Below the pieces are notes generated by a model. It made no database searches, was not told where the DNA came from, and saw nothing but the letters and a program-made list of their open reading frames with translations. This document shows positions 45,945-64,000 of a stretch of 64,000 nt of DNA, piece by piece. The first letter of the stretch is position 1. Each line of letters opens with the position of its first letter. The stretch is from Halothermothrix sp. (lineage in GTDB: Bacteria; Bacillota; Halanaerobiia; DY22613). The position numbers and the translations under genes were made by a program. The stretch lies in contig JAENYK010000011.1 in NCBI GenBank assembly GCA_016841825.1, positions 124,001-188,000 of the forward strand. Direction: 5' to 3'.

Positions 45945-46320
45945 AGTACCCATTCTGCCATTATAATTCTGTTCATCATAACATTTTGATAACTACCGGG
46001 CATAAACCGTTATTGATCGATTTTGACTATCTGTTACAGGATTTGCATCTCCGATCTAACCAGTATAATCATTCACAATGGTAAAACTTTGGTCCGAAAT
46101 CAAAAACATTGTCGATATCTTTTGGAGACATATCAGGAGATTAATCCAGTTTCCACTGCTGAGGTGAAAGTAATCCTGACGTTTATCACATACCTCATAA
46201 TATCTGGCTGTTGATTTATTCCCGATATTTTATAAACAGAATTTACTTTTTGGGTATACATAAAGGAATGGGGAAAAAGACACGCAATGAAGAGCAAAGG
46301 ATGAGATTGTTTAAAAGTAT
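45945..46320 (+). pseudogene. Decayed CotS-like kinase-fold gene
   Basis: The plus strand encodes, in shifting frames, H-H-N-I-L-I-T-T-G-H-K-P-L-L-I-D-F-D-Y-L-L-Q-D, then R-Y-L-L-E-T-Y-Q-E-I-N-P-V-S, then Y-F-I-N-R-I-Y-F-L-G. This is the catalytic half of CotS/YutH-type spore-coat kinases (H-x-D-x-x-x-x-N...D-F-D then A-Y-x-x-x-x-P-L-S). The H-G-D motif is already degraded and the N-lobe is gone. It shows an ancestor with spore-coat genes. Confidence 0.6.
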
Positions 46321-46352
46321 TCATCTTATTTGAGGGGAAATAGATTTGACTG

Positions 46353-46388
46353 AAGGAACTGTCCCTAATAGGAGACCAGTTCCTTTTT
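46353..46388 (+). terminator. Terminator after the CotS-like remnant
   Basis: AAGGAACTG at 46353-46361 pairs with CAGTTCCTT at 46377-46385, and the right arm runs into TTTTT on the plus strand. Confidence 0.65.
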
Positions 46389-46417
46389 CAATAGTGGATT
46401 AATGCTTTATGTTGAGC

Positions 46418-46565
46418 AAAAATAAAAGTGACCGAGAACAGTTTTCTAAAATCTGTGAGGAGGTTAGATTGAGTCTAAACTGTCGGTCACTTTTTAAGGA
46501 TAATAATGTTGTTTTGAAAAAGTGTATCTCATAAATATTATACATTCTTGTAGCATATATGTCAA
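46418..46565 (-). ncRNA. Putative small RNA B with consensus promoter and terminator
   Basis: On the minus strand TTGACA (46560-46565) and TATAAT (46537-46542) are 17 bases apart. The predicted RNA runs from about 46530 to about 46418 (about 113 nt). Its 3' part is one large hairpin: AAAAGTGACCGA pairs perfectly with TCGGTCACTTTT, continued by CAGTTT/AAACTG, and the stem ends in TTTTATTTTTG. The loop exposes CTAACCTCCTCAC, whose CCTCCT is complementary to Shine-Dalgarno sites. No convincing protein is encoded. It resembles its neighbour at 46633-46748 in plan and sequence. Confidence 0.65.
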
Positions 46566-46632
46566 TAGTTTGAATTATATATATCATATAAATATTATAA
46601 TTAATGAGATTAAATAAAAATAATGGGACAAA

Positions 46633-46748
46633 CAAAAAGCGACTGTTGCTCTCCTTCGGGAAAGGTGGGTATCGAGTTTCAGTCACTTTTTGGGAGATAA
46701 AAGATGTGTTTATATAAACATTATACTCGTTAGTTGTGTATTTGTCAA
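46633..46748 (-). ncRNA. Putative small RNA A with consensus promoter and terminator
   Basis: TTGACA (46743-46748) and TATAAT (46720-46725) on the minus strand have a 17-base spacer. The predicted transcript is about 80 nt, from about 46713 to the T5 tract ending near 46634. It folds on a 12-bp stem AAAAAGTGACTG/CAGTCGCTTTTT with one G-U pair. The loop holds CCCACCTTTCCC, a C-rich stretch able to pair with ribosome binding sites, followed by a small CCTT/AAGG hairpin. The transcript begins about 105 bases past the stop of the Nudix remnant. Confidence 0.65.
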
Positions 46749-46818
46749 TACAATTTTAATATTTTTTTCCTAAATTTATGGTTGATGTTTTAGACCACCT
46801 TTTAGTTAACTTCTGGAA

Positions 46819-47313
46819 TTAAAAAATATGATGTTTCTTCAGATATTCAGCTGCCATGTAATAAGCAGCAACGGAAAATATCTGGGTAATTTGCCCTGAA
46901 TGTATTTTTTCTGCAACCTGATCCAGAGGTATCAACTTAACTTCAATCTCTTCCGTATCATCAAGATTCTGTTCACTAACTTTATAGGCATCTAATACTA
47001 GAAATGTTTGCACCTGATTTGTCGCAATTGCTGGATTTGAATGAAGATTTGCAAGTAATATTGGTCTTTGAAGGGATGTGAATCCTGTTTCTTCAGCGAG
47101 TTCACGAAGTATAGCTGTGCTTACTCCATTTTCCATTACTCCTGCTTCTAGAAAAGCACAAATTAGCTTTAACACTCTTTGATCTGTTACTTTCTTAGCG
47201 ATTCGAGCCATCAACATATTGTGATTGACTCTGTCGAAGAATTTCGATAGATCCATGTCTACTACCCAGACTCTTCCTTCCTGAATATAGTGTTTCGCTT
47301 CTCTTACCGCCAT
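46819..47313 (-). pseudogene. Chimera of a group II intron reverse transcriptase piece and a Nudix hydrolase C-terminus
   Basis: Residues 1-63 are intron reverse transcriptase (D-M-D-L-S-K-F-F-D-R-V-N-H-N, then C-A-F-L-E-A-G-V-M-E-N-G). From residue 64 on it is a Nudix hydrolase: A-I-L-R-E-L-A-E-E-T-G-F is the second part of the Nudix box, and the C-terminal half follows to the stop. The first part of the box (G-x5-E) is replaced at the junction near 47124. The Nudix gene has lost its front half, so normal activity is unlikely. A-G-V-M-E-N-G is common to both families and may mark a microhomology joint. Confidence 0.75.
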
Positions 47314-48236
47314 CTTTTGATTATGCCCTTTTCTAAATCCATGACTGTGAACCGAAAAGTCCTTCTCAAATATTATCGCTAATTTTGTAGAATTATTTGC
47401 TGGTAAAACGGTCTAGCACTGTCGGAATACCTAACATCCTCTTTCCGCCTCCGTCCTTAGGTATTTCTGTCCGTCTGACAGGTTGAGGTTGATAGGTTCC
47501 CTTTAGAACTTCTTTACCTATTTCTCTCCAGTTCTCTCTTAAGAAAGCCCGCAGTTCTGGGACTCGCATTCCATCAATCCTTGGAGCTGTTTTCTTTTTC
47601 TTCTTCTCCATATATTCCAGTGCGTTTAATGTGTTTTCACCCGCTAATATCTGCTCCATCAGTCTCATATTCTTTCTCCCGTGTAACTTATTCTACCAAT
47701 CGCTATTACCTGTTCAGCCCACTTTACTATCCCTTTCGGTTCCACCATTCTGATAGTATAGCTCTTTCATGATTTCGGCTTTCTTTACAGATTCATGAGA
47801 TTAATATCTTCGGTCACTCGTTTGACGTTCCATCCTTCTCAGGCATTGTACACTATACTTCACCTGATACTATGACTTCTGCTAAACTCTGCCTTTCCAC
47901 CCTGAATCTCACGGTTCAACGTGTTAACTTAGTCAACCCTGACAGAACCTCCCCGGGTAAGAGTGATCACTTTCCTCCTAACCTATCCTATTTACTTGTA
48001 TGCTCTCGGACAACATTGAGCTTTGGTTTGTTTAGCAACCTCACCCGAATATACAAGCCTCCTACAGGTGCCTCTTTATAGAGTAGAGAGATGTGTTCCT
48101 AAGGTCAGGAATTTGCTTACAGCTTCCTTCAGATTCCACTTCACGATGGACACCCTTGCTGTTCAGCTAACGGTTGGCGTTGCCAGCCCCCCGTTCCGGA
48201 CTTTCACCGTAGAGCTATCATTCATGCCAGACACAC
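47124..48236 (-). mobile_element. Truncated group II intron (class IIC-like)
   Basis: The intron begins with GTGTG at 48236 on the minus strand. About 570 bases of ribozyme sequence follow (GAAAGTCCGGAAC, AACCGTTAGC and GGTTAGGAGG-type segments), then the reverse transcriptase frame. The element ends abruptly inside the reverse transcriptase at about 47124, so the maturase end and domains V and VI are missing and splicing is impossible. It sits directly after a hairpin plus TTTTT (48240-48274), which is the preferred target of class C introns. Confidence 0.8.
47393..47668 (-). pseudogene. N-terminal part of the group II intron reverse transcriptase
   Basis: 91 residues beginning at an ATG behind GGGAGAAAG. 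It has R-I-D-G-M-R-V-P-E-L, G-T-Y-Q-P-Q-P-V-R-R-T-E-I-P-K and R-M-L-G-I-P-T-V-L-D-R, the RT0-RT2 motifs of intron-encoded proteins. A stop follows, and the next 80 bases encode F-E-K-D-F-S-V-H-S-H-G-F-R-K-G in another frame before the piece at 47313, so at least two frameshifts have broken it. Confidence 0.8.
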
Positions 48237-48560: not shown

Positions 48561-49625
48561 TTACTTATTTAAATTTATTAAATCATTAAGAATTATTTGT
48601 TTATTGGTAATTGCTTGGGTAGCTCCACCAGGTCCATACTTAGGAAAATCTTTAGTTATTGGTTCTAACCACTTTGCATTTCCCCATTGACCATTAGGTA
48701 CTCTAATGTCATCAATAATTTGTAAAGTATCGAAAGATCCCCTTACAGAAGCATCGTGAGGAACCTGTAGTCTGCCTGGTTGAGGTATACCAAACTTATC
48801 AAATGTAATATATGTACCATTAGGATTTTCAGGAACTTTCATAGAATTAGTTAAATCATCTAAGTAACTAGCTTCATTTGACATATATCTATATCCTGTT
48901 GATGGTATAACATCTCCATTTGGCTTAACATAAAAATCAATTTGTCTCGTCCCCTCAACTATCTCATCTACATTGCCAATGAATTTAATACTACCCTTTG
49001 AGAATACCGTTATGTTATCTAATAATTTGACAGTTTTCGCTCCTACATATCCCAATAACGCATTTGTCAGTATCTCTCCAGTTAAATCTCCTGTTTTCTC
49101 TGCCAGCCACAGTGGATTCTCCTCAATATTATTTTCTATATTTTCGAAGAACATTCCATACCCTTCTAATGCATCACCTGGATGAGTAATTCCGTAATAT
49201 GCAGAGGAGGTTGCAACATCGATAAAATTCATTGTCACATCATAATATTTATTAACCGTTTCTTCGGGTTTTGCTATAAAATTGTAAGCCTCTTTTCCCA
49301 TAAATATCACATTGTCATAAATTCTCCTAAATGTATGACTGATGATTGTAGTTTTCATCTCTATGTCCAGATTAAAGCTCGCTTCAGGATCTGGTGACAT
49401 AGCATACATCATAGCCATGCTCCAATCATACTCGCTATACCCATCTGGATCCACATACTTCAATGGATTCTGCAACACATACGAGTAGAGATTCAGCGTC
49501 TGCGATCGGGTGATATCTCCCTGATACTCATCCTCACGGGTAAATCTCCCGATCTCCGGGTCATAATACCGTGCATTGTAGTAATACAACCCAATATCCG
49601 CTTCCTCCCGCTGGCCAGTATATCC
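48561..49625 (-). pseudogene. RHS toxin module A, truncated 5' end
   Basis: The RHS core (Y-Y-Y-N-A-R-Y-Y-D-P-E-I-G-R-F, L-Q-N-P-L-K-Y-V-D-P-D-G) is followed by a linker domain, a junction V-D-E-I-V-E-G-T-R-Q and a toxin tip of about 135 residues with F-D-K-F-G, L-Q-I-I-D-D-I and P-G-G-A-T-Q-A-I-T. The tip is typical of secreted polymorphic toxins but I cannot name it. The RHS frame ends abruptly at about 49625, where similarity to module D stops. The first usable ATG (49589) lies inside the core, so it is a silent or orphan tip cassette rather than a full toxin. Confidence 0.8.
48952..49625 (-). repeat. Direct repeat, copy 1 of a 674-bp RHS core segment
   Basis: Almost identical to 62996-63669. 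It spans from just before the toxin tip junction to G-Y-T-G in the RHS core. The two copies have the same length, although they carry two opposite single-base indels near 48975 and 49005 that cancel. The second copy belongs to module D. Confidence 0.85.
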
Positions 49626-56378: not shown

Positions 56379-57330
56379 TTAGTTCTTGTTTGGTTGCATT
56401 GCTTGAGAATGTTCCAGTGAATCTAAATATCCCCCACCTGCATTCTGTACTCTAAAATATGGTATGCCTTCGCCAGGTGTTGAGTGAATTCTTACTTTTG
56501 TTCTAGTTGTTGGATCTATAAATATTGTAGCAGGGTCACTTTTCTTGCCACCTACTTCAATAATTTTTTCCCAACCTAAATTCTCTAATCTTGAAATCAA
56601 TTCATCAGGAGTAGAATTCTTTGCAATATCATCAAATGAGTCACCAGTCCATTTAATGGTTTGTCTCGTCCCCTCAATAACATCTCCATTTTTAAAACAT
56701 CCATTATTATTATGTACCCATACTCCACTATTACCAACAAAATAAGTATGATAATCCTTTACCTCAAAATTATAAACCGTAATTCCTTCTTCTATCTTAA
56801 GACGCTCGATGTCTTTAATCCGGATCTGGTCTTGATCATAGAAATATAATTCATCTTCTTTTAACAGTTCTCCTGCTTCAATCCAACCTTTATTAATAAC
56901 CCCGAATGGATGCTCGTTTGTAGTTTCTATTACTTCACCATTTGATAAGGTAATCTTAGTAATAAGATATGCAGTTCTTATAATAGTTCGAACAACGGAT
57001 TTATAACCTTCTTCTCCAGTACTCTCATCTTTAGAATAAACAATATCTCCGGATTTAATATTCTCAATTTCAACCAACCCTCGATCAGTAACAATTAGCG
57101 TTCCTGCAACAAAACATACACCCGATGGCGTTTCCTGCACTATTTTTCGGGAATCCAGATCCGCATCAAGTCTATCAGACTGCCTAATTCCATCTGCTGC
57201 TTCATCCAGATACTTGGCATTGTCAAAATACTTGATATTCTGCACTACACCAATCAAGGGGATCAAACCTACTCCATTTAGGATAATACCTGTTACATCA
57301 CCATTTTTTACACTGGCACCAGATCTCTGA
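56379..57330 (-). pseudogene. HINT-domain polymorphic toxin tip, module B
   Basis: A pretoxin hydrophobic segment G-V-G-L-I-P-L-I-G is followed by a HINT (intein-like) protease domain: C-F-V-A-G-T-L-I at its start, T-T-N-E-H-P-F in the middle and W-V-H-N-N at its end. HINT autocleavage releases the tip. The tip (about 105 residues, after V-I-E-G-T-R-Q) has K-V-R-I-H-S-T-P-G-E-G-I-P and Y-F-R-V-Q-N-A-G-G-G-Y-L, likely a small nuclease fold. A frameshift near 57325 separates it from its RHS part at 57308-57790, so the fusion cannot be made as a whole. Confidence 0.75.
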
Positions 57331-57790
57331 TATCAGCTGCAGCATCTATTCCGATTATATCCAGACCTATCTGTCCGGCTATACCCAGAGCATTTATGTC
57401 TTCCTGAGCAGTAAAGTCCCCCAAAATCATCATCTTTGCAGCATTTCCCAGATATTTGACTACCTCATCAGTAATCTCATTTGTAAAATCGTAAGAATAG
57501 CCAAATCCATAATTCAAGTGAGATCTGTTACTTACATCTCCCGCAAAATTAGCCATATACCCATCTGGATCCACATACTTCAACGGATTCTGCAGCACAT
57601 ACGAGTAGAGATTCAACGTCTGTCCAAATGGTGTGTAATCCTGCTCAAACACCACCTGTCCGCTCTCATCAGTCATCATCACCGTCGATCCCAGATTATC
57701 CTGATGATAGTAATATTTGTCTTCGACCTCAACTGGCCCATCTCCTGCACCAGCTGCCAGATGCATATCCTTTTCCCGATAAGCTTGACA
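57308..57790 (-). pseudogene. RHS core fragment of module B with internal deletion
   Basis: The frame reads K-Y-Y-Y-H-Q-D-N-L-G-S-T-V-M-M, then joins D-Y-T-P-F-G-Q-T directly to L-N-L-Y-S-Y-V-L-Q-N-P-L-K-Y-V-D. The roughly 63 residues that lie between these blocks in modules C and D are gone, a precise in-frame deletion between similar G-Q-T-L and S-Q-T-L codons. It also carries a single-base loss near 57779 and ends upstream at about 57790, where RHS similarity stops. Confidence 0.8.
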
Positions 57791-58459: not shown

Positions 58460-60064
58460 CTATCTCCCATAAGGTACATTATCAATAATAATATGTCCCC
58501 TTATAGCACCTTCACTTGAACGTTTACCACCAGTTTGCCACCCAATATAAGGTGCATCAGGACCAGTTATCCAATTATCATTAACATCAACATTATAATG
58601 TGTAAAATCAATATTTACTTCCGCACCATTAGGAGCTCTCCATTCAATTGGAAATGATTTGCCATATTCGTTTTTCCCCCACTTTGTAACTTTAAAGTCA
58701 GTCTTATTAAGCCCCGTATTTTTGAAAGCCATATCTAAAGCGTCATCAAATGCTATACCAGTACCTCTTAAATCAATATCCGTATTCTTAAGGACATATT
58801 TAAGATTAGACATCCCCTCAAAAAAATCATCTCTTTTTGTTGAAAACAATTGCAAATTCATTCTTAGCATAGGTGTATTTGCAACATCCGAAACATTTTC
58901 AGTTACTTTTGTAGCAATTATTAAACTCTTGCTAATATCAGATGCTTTATTTGCAACTTTTAAAGCTACTTGCCCAGCCAAAACATCTATAAGAATTTGT
59001 CCTCCAACATCACCTAACATTTTCGATTTTTCGTAAGGATTAGCTTCAACAAAAGTGTTATAATAATTCACTACAGCATCAACAGCTATCTGTCGTTTAC
59101 GAACGAGAGTGACTATTCCATTCCAAGTATTTTTGACAGTTTTAACTGGATGAGTAACGGTGCTATATAGGTCACTTACAGTATTTATTCCAGCATTAAC
59201 TCCACCAACGATAAAACCAGCTAACACTGCGTTTTCATTAGGTTTCATTTCTTCATATTTGGGTTGACTTGTCATATAACGAATATGTTCTAAATATTCT
59301 TCTTCACTGGTTATGGCACCACTTTCATTTGAAGAAAAATTAGCCATATACCCATCTGGATCCACATACTTCAACGGATTCTGCAGCACATACGAGTAGA
59401 GATTCAACGTCTGCGATCGGGTTATATCTCCCTGATACTCATCCTCACGGGTAAATCTCCCGATCTCCAGGTCATAATACCGTGCATTGTAGTAATACAG
59501 CCCAATATCCACTTCCTCCCGCTGACCAGTATATCCAAATCCGGGCTCTACACCAGATGTTGGCTTCTTAACTGTCCCGGATTGATAAAATGTCTGTCCA
59601 AATGGTGTGTAATCCTGCTCAAACACCACCTGTCCGCTCTCATCAGTCATCATCACCGTCGATCCCAGATTATCCTGATGATAGTAATATTTGTCTTCGA
59701 CCTCTACAGGGCTTCCTCCTTCATCCGCTCCTACATGCATATCCTTTTTACCGATAAGTTTACCCAGGGCATAGACATATAGGGTCTGCTCATTAGCAGT
59801 AAGATTATCTTCATAGATCTCCTGGCCGAGATAATTGAAGATATGATATACCACTTTCCCGGCTTCCTCAACCTTAATCCGCTTACCGTTATGGTCATAC
59901 CAGTATCGGGAGATATTCTGGGTCTCCTCCTCACCATTCTTCCACACTTCCATCAGACGATTACGGGCATTGTAGTCATATTCCCAGTAACCTTTCCCAC
60001 CTGTAAAGCTATAGCTATTACCTTTAGCAATGGTATTCCTAGTCTGATCATACTTATAGGACAA
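58460..60064 (-). CDS. RHS toxin module C, orphan tip with partial RHS core (toxin type 47-like)
   Basis: 534 residues from a TTG at 60064, where RHS sequence begins abruptly. YD-repeat core (Y-D-Y-N-A-R-N-R-L-M-E-V-W), then D-Y-T-P-F-G-Q-T and Y-V-D-P-D-G-Y. A helical linker with G-G-V-N-A-G-I-N follows, then junction F-F-E-G-M-S-N and a tip of about 115 residues ending R-G-H-I-I-I-D-N-V-P-Y-G-R. This tail with P-I-E-W-R-A-P-N-G-A-E-V recalls polymorphic toxin type 47, thought to be an RNase. With no signal and a broken core it is a displaced cassette; recombination with the full-length RHS gene could activate it. Confidence 0.78.
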   Translation of the reverse strand: MSYKYDQTRNTIAKGNSYSFTGGKGYWEYDYNARNRLMEVWKNGEEETQNISRYWYDHNGKRIKVEEAGKVVYHIFNYLGQEIYEDNLTANEQTLYVYALGKLIGKKDMHVGADEGGSPVEVEDKYYYHQDNLGSTVMMTDESGQVVFEQDYTPFGQTFYQSGTVKKPTSGVEPGFGYTGQREEVDIGLYYYNARYYDLEIGRFTREDEYQGDITRSQTLNLYSYVLQNPLKYVDPDGYMANFSSNESGAITSEEEYLEHIRYMTSQPKYEEMKPNENAVLAGFIVGGVNAGINTVSDLYSTVTHPVKTVKNTWNGIVTLVRKRQIAVDAVVNYYNTFVEANPYEKSKMLGDVGGQILIDVLAGQVALKVANKASDISKSLIIATKVTENVSDVANTPMLRMNLQLFSTKRDDFFEGMSNLKYVLKNTDIDLRGTGIAFDDALDMAFKNTGLNKTDFKVTKWGKNEYGKSFPIEWRAPNGAEVNIDFTHYNVDVNDNWITGPDAPYIGWQTGGKRSSEGAIRGHIIIDNVPYGR

Positions 60065-62607: not shown

Positions 62608-64000
62608 TTACTTAGGATTACTTGGTCTTACTGTCGATATACCTTCACTCGAAAGCTTATTTCTAGTTAACTGACCTGTTAACAATTCTTCATACAAGTC
62701 TTGACCTGTTCTATTAACCGCATTCCATTGGTTTCGAGGTATTCCAGCCTGCGTAAGTGCTTGTGAAGACCTAGTGTTAAGTATTAATGTATTTCCATCT
62801 CTTACAACGTAATCAATTGGTATTTGAGAAGGAGATATTTCACCATTCTTAATTGCACCAACCAAATCATCTACACTTACTATATCCCTTCCTGCTATTT
62901 TTGAGTAGTAGGCAATACCTTCATCACTAAAACTCGATGCTTTGAAAGTTTTTTGAGCAAAGTTGGCACTATCTAGCACACCACCATTACTCATTCCCTC
63001 AACTATCTCATCTACATTATCCAATGAATTTAATACTACCCTTTGAGAATCTGTTATGTTATCTAATAATTTGACAGTTTTCGCTCCTACATATCCCAAT
63101 AACGCATTTGTCAGTATCTCTCCAGTTAAATCTCCTGTTTTCTCTGCCAGCCACAGTGGATTCTCCTCAATATTATTTTCTATATTTTCGAAGAACATTC
63201 CATACCCTTCTAATGCATCACCTGGATGAGTAATTCCGTAATATGCAGAGGAGGTTGCAACATCGATAAAATTCATTGTCACATCATAATATTTATTAAC
63301 CGTTTCTTCGGGTTTTGCTATAAAATTGTAAGCCTCTTTTCCCATAAATATCACATTGTCATAAATTCTCCTAAATGTATGACTGATGATTGTAGTTTTC
63401 ATCTCTATGTCCAGATTAAAGCTCGCTTCAGGATCTGGTGACATAGCATACATCATAGCCATGCTCCAATCATACTCGCTATACCCATCTGGATCCACAT
63501 ACTTCAATGGATTCTGCAACACATACGAGTAGAGATTCAGCGTCTGCGGTCGGGTGATATCTCCCTGATACTCATCCTCACGGGTAAATCTCCCTATCTC
63601 CGGGTCATAATACCGTGCATTGTAGTAATACAGCCCAATATCCGCTTCCTCCCGCTGACCAGTATATCCAAATCCGGGCTCTACCCCAGATGTTGGCTTC
63701 GCAACTGTTCCGGGTTGATACAATGTCTGTCCAAATGGTGTATAATCCTGCTCAAACACCACCTGCCCGCTCTCATCAGTCATCATTACTGTCGAACCCA
63801 GATTATCCTGATGATAGTAATATTTATCTTCGACCTCAACTGGCCCATCTCCTGCACCAGCTGCCAGATGCATATCCTTCTTCCCGATAAGTTTACCCAG
63901 GGCATAGACATACAGGGTCTGCTGATTGGTGGTGAGATTATCTTCATAGATCTCCTGACCGAGATAATTGAAGACATGATAGACTACCTTTCCGGCTTCC
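62608..64000 (-). CDS. RHS-repeat polymorphic toxin, module D, 5' end outside window
   Basis: The frame is open to the right edge (464 codons shown), so this is the 3' end of a larger, perhaps full-length RHS protein. In order: Y-V-Y-A-L-G-K-L, K-Y-Y-Y-H-Q-D-N-L-G-S, D-Y-T-P-F-G-Q-T, G-Y-T-G-Q-R-E-E, Y-V-D-P-D-G-Y, a linker domain, junction V-D-E-I-V-E-G-M-S-N and a tip of about 135 residues with S-D-E-G-I-A-Y-Y-S-K-I-A-G-R and L-I-L-N-T-R-S-S-Q-A-L. RHS shells encase a toxic tip and deliver it to neighbours. The tip activity is unknown. It is followed by a candidate immunity gene. Confidence 0.85.
   Translation of the reverse strand, partial: EAGKVVYHVFNYLGQEIYEDNLTTNQQTLYVYALGKLIGKKDMHLAAGAGDGPVEVEDKYYYHQDNLGSTVMMTDESGQVVFEQDYTPFGQTLYQPGTVAKPTSGVEPGFGYTGQREEADIGLYYYNARYYDPEIGRFTREDEYQGDITRPQTLNLYSYVLQNPLKYVDPDGYSEYDWSMAMMYAMSPDPEASFNLDIEMKTTIISHTFRRIYDNVIFMGKEAYNFIAKPEETVNKYYDVTMNFIDVATSSAYYGITHPGDALEGYGMFFENIENNIEENPLWLAEKTGDLTGEILTNALLGYVGAKTVKLLDNITDSQRVVLNSLDNVDEIVEGMSNGGVLDSANFAQKTFKASSFSDEGIAYYSKIAGRDIVSVDDLVGAIKNGEISPSQIPIDYVVRDGNTLILNTRSSQALTQAGIPRNQWNAVNRTGQDLYEELLTGQLTRNKLSSEGISTVRPSNPK
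62996..63669 (-). repeat. Direct repeat, copy 2 of the 674-bp RHS core segment
   Basis: Nearly identical to 48952-49625. At the right edge the match ends at the breakpoint of module A, while the RHS core here continues. Such long identity, 14 kb apart in direct orientation, is a substrate for recombination that would delete the region between or exchange toxin tips. Confidence 0.85.

Follow-up and report, generated by a model that had tools for sequence, protein, structure and literature searches.

What are the two short units that lie one behind the other on the minus strand at 46748-46416 of a 64,000-nucleotide stretch of Halothermothrix sp. DNA (the window), and what might they do in the cell? 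In both units, A and then B, a promoter and a leader precede a GUGAC-based hairpin, whose loop is large and C-rich, and a U-tract follows. Sequence comparison gives good support to the view that they belong to a previously undescribed RNA gene family with at least 8, and probably 10, members in the genome. The explanation towards which we lean, with modest confidence, is that the members are multicopy, lineage-specific, trans-acting small RNAs (sRNAs) that mask ribosome-binding sites and that are linked, in their commonest arrangement, to XRE regulator genes.

Architecture of units A and B

All features of the two units are located on the minus strand. The promoter of unit A (TTGACA-17-TATAAT, 46720..46748) agrees with the consensus hexamers at 12/12 positions, and so does that of unit B (46537..46565). 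Perfect promoters of this type are rare in the genome; 85 sites were counted in 5.08 Mb vs. 4 for a reversed control pattern. The predicted RNA A (46627..46713, ~80-87 nt) would start ~7 nt past the -10 hexamer, and the predicted RNA B (46416..46530, ~113 nt) has a putative start as well; both end with a hairpin and a U-tract. In unit A, the leader C-run TATCTCCC (46692..46699; predicted unpaired, 0.86) is followed by the 5' arm of the folded hairpin, CAAAAAGUGACUG (46680..46692), the A-type loop motif ACCCACCUUUCCC (46658..46670; predicted unpaired, 0.61), and the 3' arm (46633..46645), which continues into the U-tract as a predicted terminator. The fold of unit B comprises the 5' arm AAAAGUGACCGACAGUUU (46477..46494), the B-type loop motif UAACCUCCUCA (46456..46466), which is an anti-Shine-Dalgarno (anti-SD) sequence, and the 3' arm with its U-tract (46418..46443), again a predicted terminator.

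The stems of A and B have AAAAAGUGAC(U/C)G in common; the loop of A holds CCCACCUUUCCC and that of B holds AACCUCCUCA, and the C-rich segments are predicted to be unpaired for the most part. Hairpin A reaches -20.5 kcal/mol (z ~ -4) and hairpin B -23 to -25 kcal/mol (z ~ -5), and in neither case did any of 200 shuffled sequences fold equally well. With its perfect hexamers and hairpins beyond the shuffles, the pair corresponds to what the initial annotation had described: two minus-strand units with perfect promoters, GUGAC stems, C-rich loops, and U-tracts. Judged by sequence, A and B each possess their own promoter and their own intrinsic terminator. The claim that no protein is encoded also holds, as no start codon with a Shine-Dalgarno (SD) sequence was found within transcript A or B, and a 95-aa open reading frame (ORF) spanning the region has no Pfam match. 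A small encoded peptide was considered and rejected: several loops can be read as Y-P-x-F in one frame or another, but the frame varies relative to the stem, and an SD-preceded start is lacking in A and B.

Family members in this genome and candidates beyond it

Since the shared stem is weak evidence on its own, the units were modelled whole, from promoter to terminator, with covariance models from A and B alone (R1), from six hairpins (R2), and from eight units (R3). A covariance-model search of related genomes seeded with both hairpins had been proposed at the outset. In the own genome, R1 returned paralogues at C24:61259-61384 (E 3.7e-6) and C22:401755-401888 (E 5.9e-5) and one weaker match adjoining an XRE gene. 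R2 placed the held-out unit C33:17k, which adjoins an XRE gene, right behind its six training units (E 0.47). Two held-out matches, each divergent from an XRE gene, came from R3: C22:3730 (E 0.0045, with a degenerate hairpin) and C43:57579 (E 0.011). Eight units are clear (A, B, C24:61k, C22:401k1, C22:401k2, C22:327k, C33:17k, and C14:242k) and two are weaker (C43:58k and C22:3.7k). The R3 matches in the window, 46627-46751 at A and 46416-46568 at B, are those of training members. C24:61k and C22:401k1 have the strongest independent support, through R1; that for C22:327k (R1 E 1.5), C22:401k2 (R1 17 bits), C33:17k (the R2 match), and C14:242k (R1 25 bits, R2 19.4 bits) is weaker. These four were also accepted because of their loops, their promoters, and, except for C22:327k, their XRE neighbours.

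The promoter, the stem, a loop motif (UAUCCCCACUUUUCCC or AACCUCCUCA), and, in most units, a leader C-run are conserved among the paralogues; the leader run takes the form ATC(Y)CC. The stems were examined on MAFFT alignments that had not been fitted to structure, with slid alignments as controls. In the six-unit and eight-unit sets, 95% and 90% of the cells were paired, respectively, vs. at most 54% in the slid alignments, and two-sided changes occurred at 3 and 4 pairs. Such compensation involves the 5' arm of hairpin A, and at C22:327k, for example, GUGACC/GGUCAC has become GUAACC/GGUUAC. Stems without compensatory changes among relatives had been named as an outcome that would speak against a family; among the paralogues, the two-sided changes are present, and the family stands. 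The A-type loop motif is conserved beyond composition, with a mean best 12-mer identity of 9.1 vs. 8.3 ± 0.16 (0/100 shuffles), and a leave-one-out matrix test on the A-type loops, the instances of which were picked by eye, gave a Fisher p of 5e-8. The B loop and the loop region of C22:401k2 are alike at 11/12 bases, which 18/2000 shuffles reach.

The promoters resemble one another outside the hexamers as well. Promoter A is closest to that of C24:61k (23/28 positions), and C22:401k1, C22:3.7k, and C33:17k share 21-23/28, whereas 82 other perfect promoters share at most 18/28 with one another. Promoter B is closest to C33:17k (19/28) and shares 18/28 with C22:401k1, and A and B agree at 15/28; hence, A and B represent two promoter subgroups and not a fresh local duplication. 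The impression that the two units are duplicates therefore needs to be qualified. The A-then-B order does recur in a second tandem pair at C22:401k, where an A-type unit (loop AUCCCCACUUUUCCC) precedes a B-type unit (loop ACACCUCCUCA) as in the window, but the family as a whole is dispersed. The loop of C33:17k, CUUUCCCUAUCUUUCCC, is also of the A type. With at least eight units, compensatory stem changes, and conserved loop motifs and promoters, the suggested new sRNA family is larger than had been proposed, and its transcripts are predicted ones. Apart from these units, a hairpin with a UAUCCCC leader and the loop CUCACCUUUCCCC lies downstream of another XRE gene (L176:2031-2101, plus strand; R2 17.4 bits), with no promoter seen.

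Outside this genome, the evidence for such units is moderate and confined to a second genus of the bacterial family, with one fair candidate and one found by eye. The only other genome of that family (G001) carries many XRE paralogues of the same kind. Its top R3 match, the held-out C1:2822852 (E 0.07), and the candidate picked out by eye at C1:2374k each lie divergent from an XRE gene. The latter, which combines a perfect promoter with a CUAUCCCC leader and with a strong GAGUGGUCAG hairpin and its U-tract, was not reported by R3 at E <= 2. Two further R3 matches in G001 (2613k and 1724k) were unconvincing on inspection. In the rest of the class, R3 returned only noise (E >= 0.18), and a blastn search of the 303-bp stretch against 61 relatives yielded nothing beyond noise of an AT-rich or promoter-like kind. 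An exact promoter-plus-stem pattern had two matches among 84,980 genomes, in Oceanobacillus and Bacteroidales, and both were judged to be chance terminators; R3 scored 17.8 bits at the Oceanobacillus site and found nothing on the Bacteroidales contig. Twelve loose pattern matches in viral contigs failed to match R3. In Rfam 15, no family reached its gathering score at the units, and the best sub-threshold matches at the units of the window were unrelated. In the literature searched, no sRNA family with such a link to XRE genes had been described. The family is most likely specific to this bacterial lineage.

Regulator linkage, proposed mode of action, and alternatives

Six of the ten units (C22:401k1, C22:401k2, C33:17k, C14:242k, C43:58k, and C22:3.7k) are divergent from paralogous dual-HTH XRE genes. 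The encoded proteins have ~175 aa (the one at C22:3.7k is truncated) and contain DNA-binding HTH_3 domains and no recognised RNA-binding domain. No XRE gene adjoins A or B. This XRE-linked expansion is a feature that the initial annotation did not foresee, and the XRE regulator probably controls the promoter region that it shares with the divergent RNA gene. Beyond the RNA unit, as seen from the XRE gene, a small HTH gene occurs at three of the XRE-linked loci (74-89 aa, pointing towards the RNA units; L155:794-1063, L217:5613-5870, and L219:7360-7584). At four, a TPR-like gene or a remnant of one lies directly behind the XRE gene on the opposite strand (L217:6718-8598, L062:4663-5631, L155:2228-2617, and L218:9070-9441); the TPR-like proteins have ~300 aa (two at C14 and one at C22:3.7k), and the remnants are shorter. 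The module at C22:401k is flanked by an orphan Cas6b gene (L215:4029-4703, minus strand) and two copies of the CRISPR repeat GTTTCAATCCTTATTTTAATGGATTATCAATAATGAC (L216:1309 and 1383, plus strand), and the examined flanks of that locus revealed neither a further cas gene nor a longer array. A CRISPR-related RNA was considered on this account; since the repeat is absent from the examined flanks of the other units, this is not a general explanation.

In the mode of action that we propose, A and B would belong to a family of short RNAs that exists in several copies and whose members are transcribed independently, each from its own sigma-A-type promoter and up to its own terminator hairpin. The C-rich segments would lie open in the large loop of the terminator, and in most cases in the 5' leader as well, and could pair in trans with purine-rich ribosome-binding sites of messenger RNAs (mRNAs) and thereby prevent their translation. 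The most frequent layout places the RNA gene divergent from a dual-HTH XRE gene, with A and B as dispersed copies without one. Complementarity of the loops to ribosome-binding sites had been suggested from the start and is supported, in silico, for the B type only. Against 305 start regions from this genome, the B loop reached -16.7 vs. -14.8 ± 1.1 for shuffled loops, and the C22:401k2 loop -16.9 vs. -12.9 ± 0.9, an advantage that is due to the generic CCUCCU anti-SD core. Given these results, the mechanism is more strongly suggested for B than for A.

Several observations weigh against this explanation. The A-type loops paired with the 305 start regions no better than shuffled loops did, and the mRNA of the neighbouring XRE gene was rejected as a target since its start region was not preferred in the pairing test. 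The stem resembles ordinary terminators. Because R3 was trained on the eight clear units, the E-values that it gives them follow by construction, and the calibration was short. Finally, C22:327k has no U-tract and continues into a small ORF; it looks like an mRNA leader, and some other members may be mRNA leaders too.

This last observation leads to the main alternative, according to which the units are cis-acting leaders or attenuators, with the C-rich loop pairing with the SD sequence of the next gene in a loop-to-SD pseudoknot, and stand-alone copies such as A and B would be leaders whose gene has been lost. The hairpin of C22:327k stands directly before a 94-aa ORF, the SD region of which (GAAAGGU) is complementary to the loop sequence ACCUUUC, and at G001:2823k, a leader hairpin lies ahead of a homologous ORF. 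Nevertheless, a U-tract terminates A, B, C24:61k, both C22:401k units, C33:17k, and C14:242k, and A and B have no same-strand ORF of their own directly downstream but head towards a pseudogene remnant on the other strand. We regard this alternative as unlikely. Homologous small proteins of 90-94 aa (MxYYxLLxxGT...) are encoded behind leader hairpins with C-rich loops at L220:4962-5246 and L221:7549-7821 (both minus strand); the G000 copy has no Pfam match.

It is less likely still that the RNAs are decoys, whose conserved loop would bind a protein, such as the linked XRE regulator or another factor, and not an mRNA. The A-type loop motif would fit this idea, being conserved beyond composition and yet without a pairing preference for start regions, as would the linkage to XRE genes. 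The XRE proteins, however, carry no recognised RNA-binding domain beside their HTH_3 domains, and the B-type loop is a plain anti-SD sequence. More improbable is the proposal that ordinary strong promoters stand beside ordinary terminators, that the transcripts are non-functional by-products, and that the shared stem is simply a common terminator stem. Stems with AAAAGUGACUG do occur in plain terminators (C22:258004 and the Oceanobacillus and Bacteroidales matches), and for this reason, the shared stem alone says little; the C22:258004 hairpin itself was rejected as a family unit and taken for a common bidirectional terminator that separates the convergent MATE and TetR genes. The joint conservation of promoter spacer, leader, stem, and loop in the paralogues, the 34-50 nt loops, which are unusual for terminators, and the recurring A-then-B order argue against by-products. 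That the units are ends or small non-autonomous copies of a mobile element is very improbable: copies are dispersed in one genome, and the neighbourhood of the pair contains Rhs repeats and a truncated group II intron, but the copies have diverged with compensatory changes instead of being near-identical, nearly all have kept the promoter, several loci have a fixed XRE neighbour, and plasmids, phages, and viral contigs gave no match by DNA or by XRE protein.

A further-reaching explanation is possible though doubtful. Each dual-HTH XRE gene with its divergent C-rich-loop RNA might be one repeated regulatory module, expanded many times in this bacterial family; the A-type loop might then act through a defined RNA or protein partner and not as a plain anti-SD sequence, and the dispersed units A and B might let the modules cross-talk.

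As for the surroundings of the pair, A and B sit downstream, on the same strand, of a chimeric ORF (46819-47313) in which an RVT_1 N-terminal part, below the Pfam cut-off, is joined to a NUDIX C-terminal part. Group II intron RNA domains lie upstream of it (47832-48150, minus strand), and the region resembles a NUDIX gene to which a truncated group II intron has been fused. The opposite strand carries a PHP gene and then an apparently decayed CotS-type kinase gene (45950-46330), followed by a plus-strand hairpin with a T-run (GGAACTG...CAGTTCC, 46340-46398), probably a terminator facing A and B. In G001, the corresponding position (L030:5401-6423) has an intact CotS-type kinase gene, and the PHP/CotS cluster exists there without an RNA unit next to it. 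Several near-repeated ORFs for Rhs/YD-repeat C-terminal parts are found farther along the minus strand (48561-49589, 57308-57766, 58460-60064, and 62608-63873).

Comparison with known sRNA families

The C-rich loops suggest, by analogy with RsaE, LhrC, and the csRNAs, pairing with purine-rich ribosome-binding sites. The initial annotation had likened the units to RsaE/RoxS-type regulators of Staphylococcus and Bacillus. The logic of unpaired C-rich motifs is indeed similar, and those of RsaE and RoxS bind ribosome-binding sites (PMC6435200), but the present family has no Rfam match, is multicopy, differs in structure and sequence, and has predicted anti-ribosome-binding-site pairing supported for the B-type loop only. 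The csRNAs of Streptococcus, which belong to the CiaR regulon, are likewise a set of related sRNAs in several copies, each with a terminator stem, and some consist of a terminator stem-loop only (PMC3091779). They carry unpaired anti-SD segments; in the present family, the pairing energies favour such a role for the B-type loops, and the A-type loops do no better than shuffled ones. The present family differs in that the loop motif lies inside the terminator hairpin and no pairing with AUG was shown; the CiaR direct repeat TTTAAG-N5-TTTAAG had no match near 46418-46748 with up to 2 mismatches allowed. LhrC1-5 of Listeria monocytogenes, predicted to block the SD sequence of the bound target (PMC4132741), resemble the A/B family in that there are several homologous copies, whose CU-rich motifs fall into unpaired stretches. 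In contrast to LhrC, which has two hairpins and is under the control of the LisRK two-component system (PMC4132741), the A/B units have one main hairpin and are linked to XRE regulator genes.

An assignment of the units to RsaE, LhrC, or csRNA is not supported, and no described Rfam family covers these RNAs. A multicopy RNA family tied to expanded paralogous regulators would be a natural system for studying how RNAs and regulators co-evolve. For LhrC and the csRNAs, it has been asked why a bacterium should maintain an sRNA in so many similar copies, and such a system would bear on this question too.
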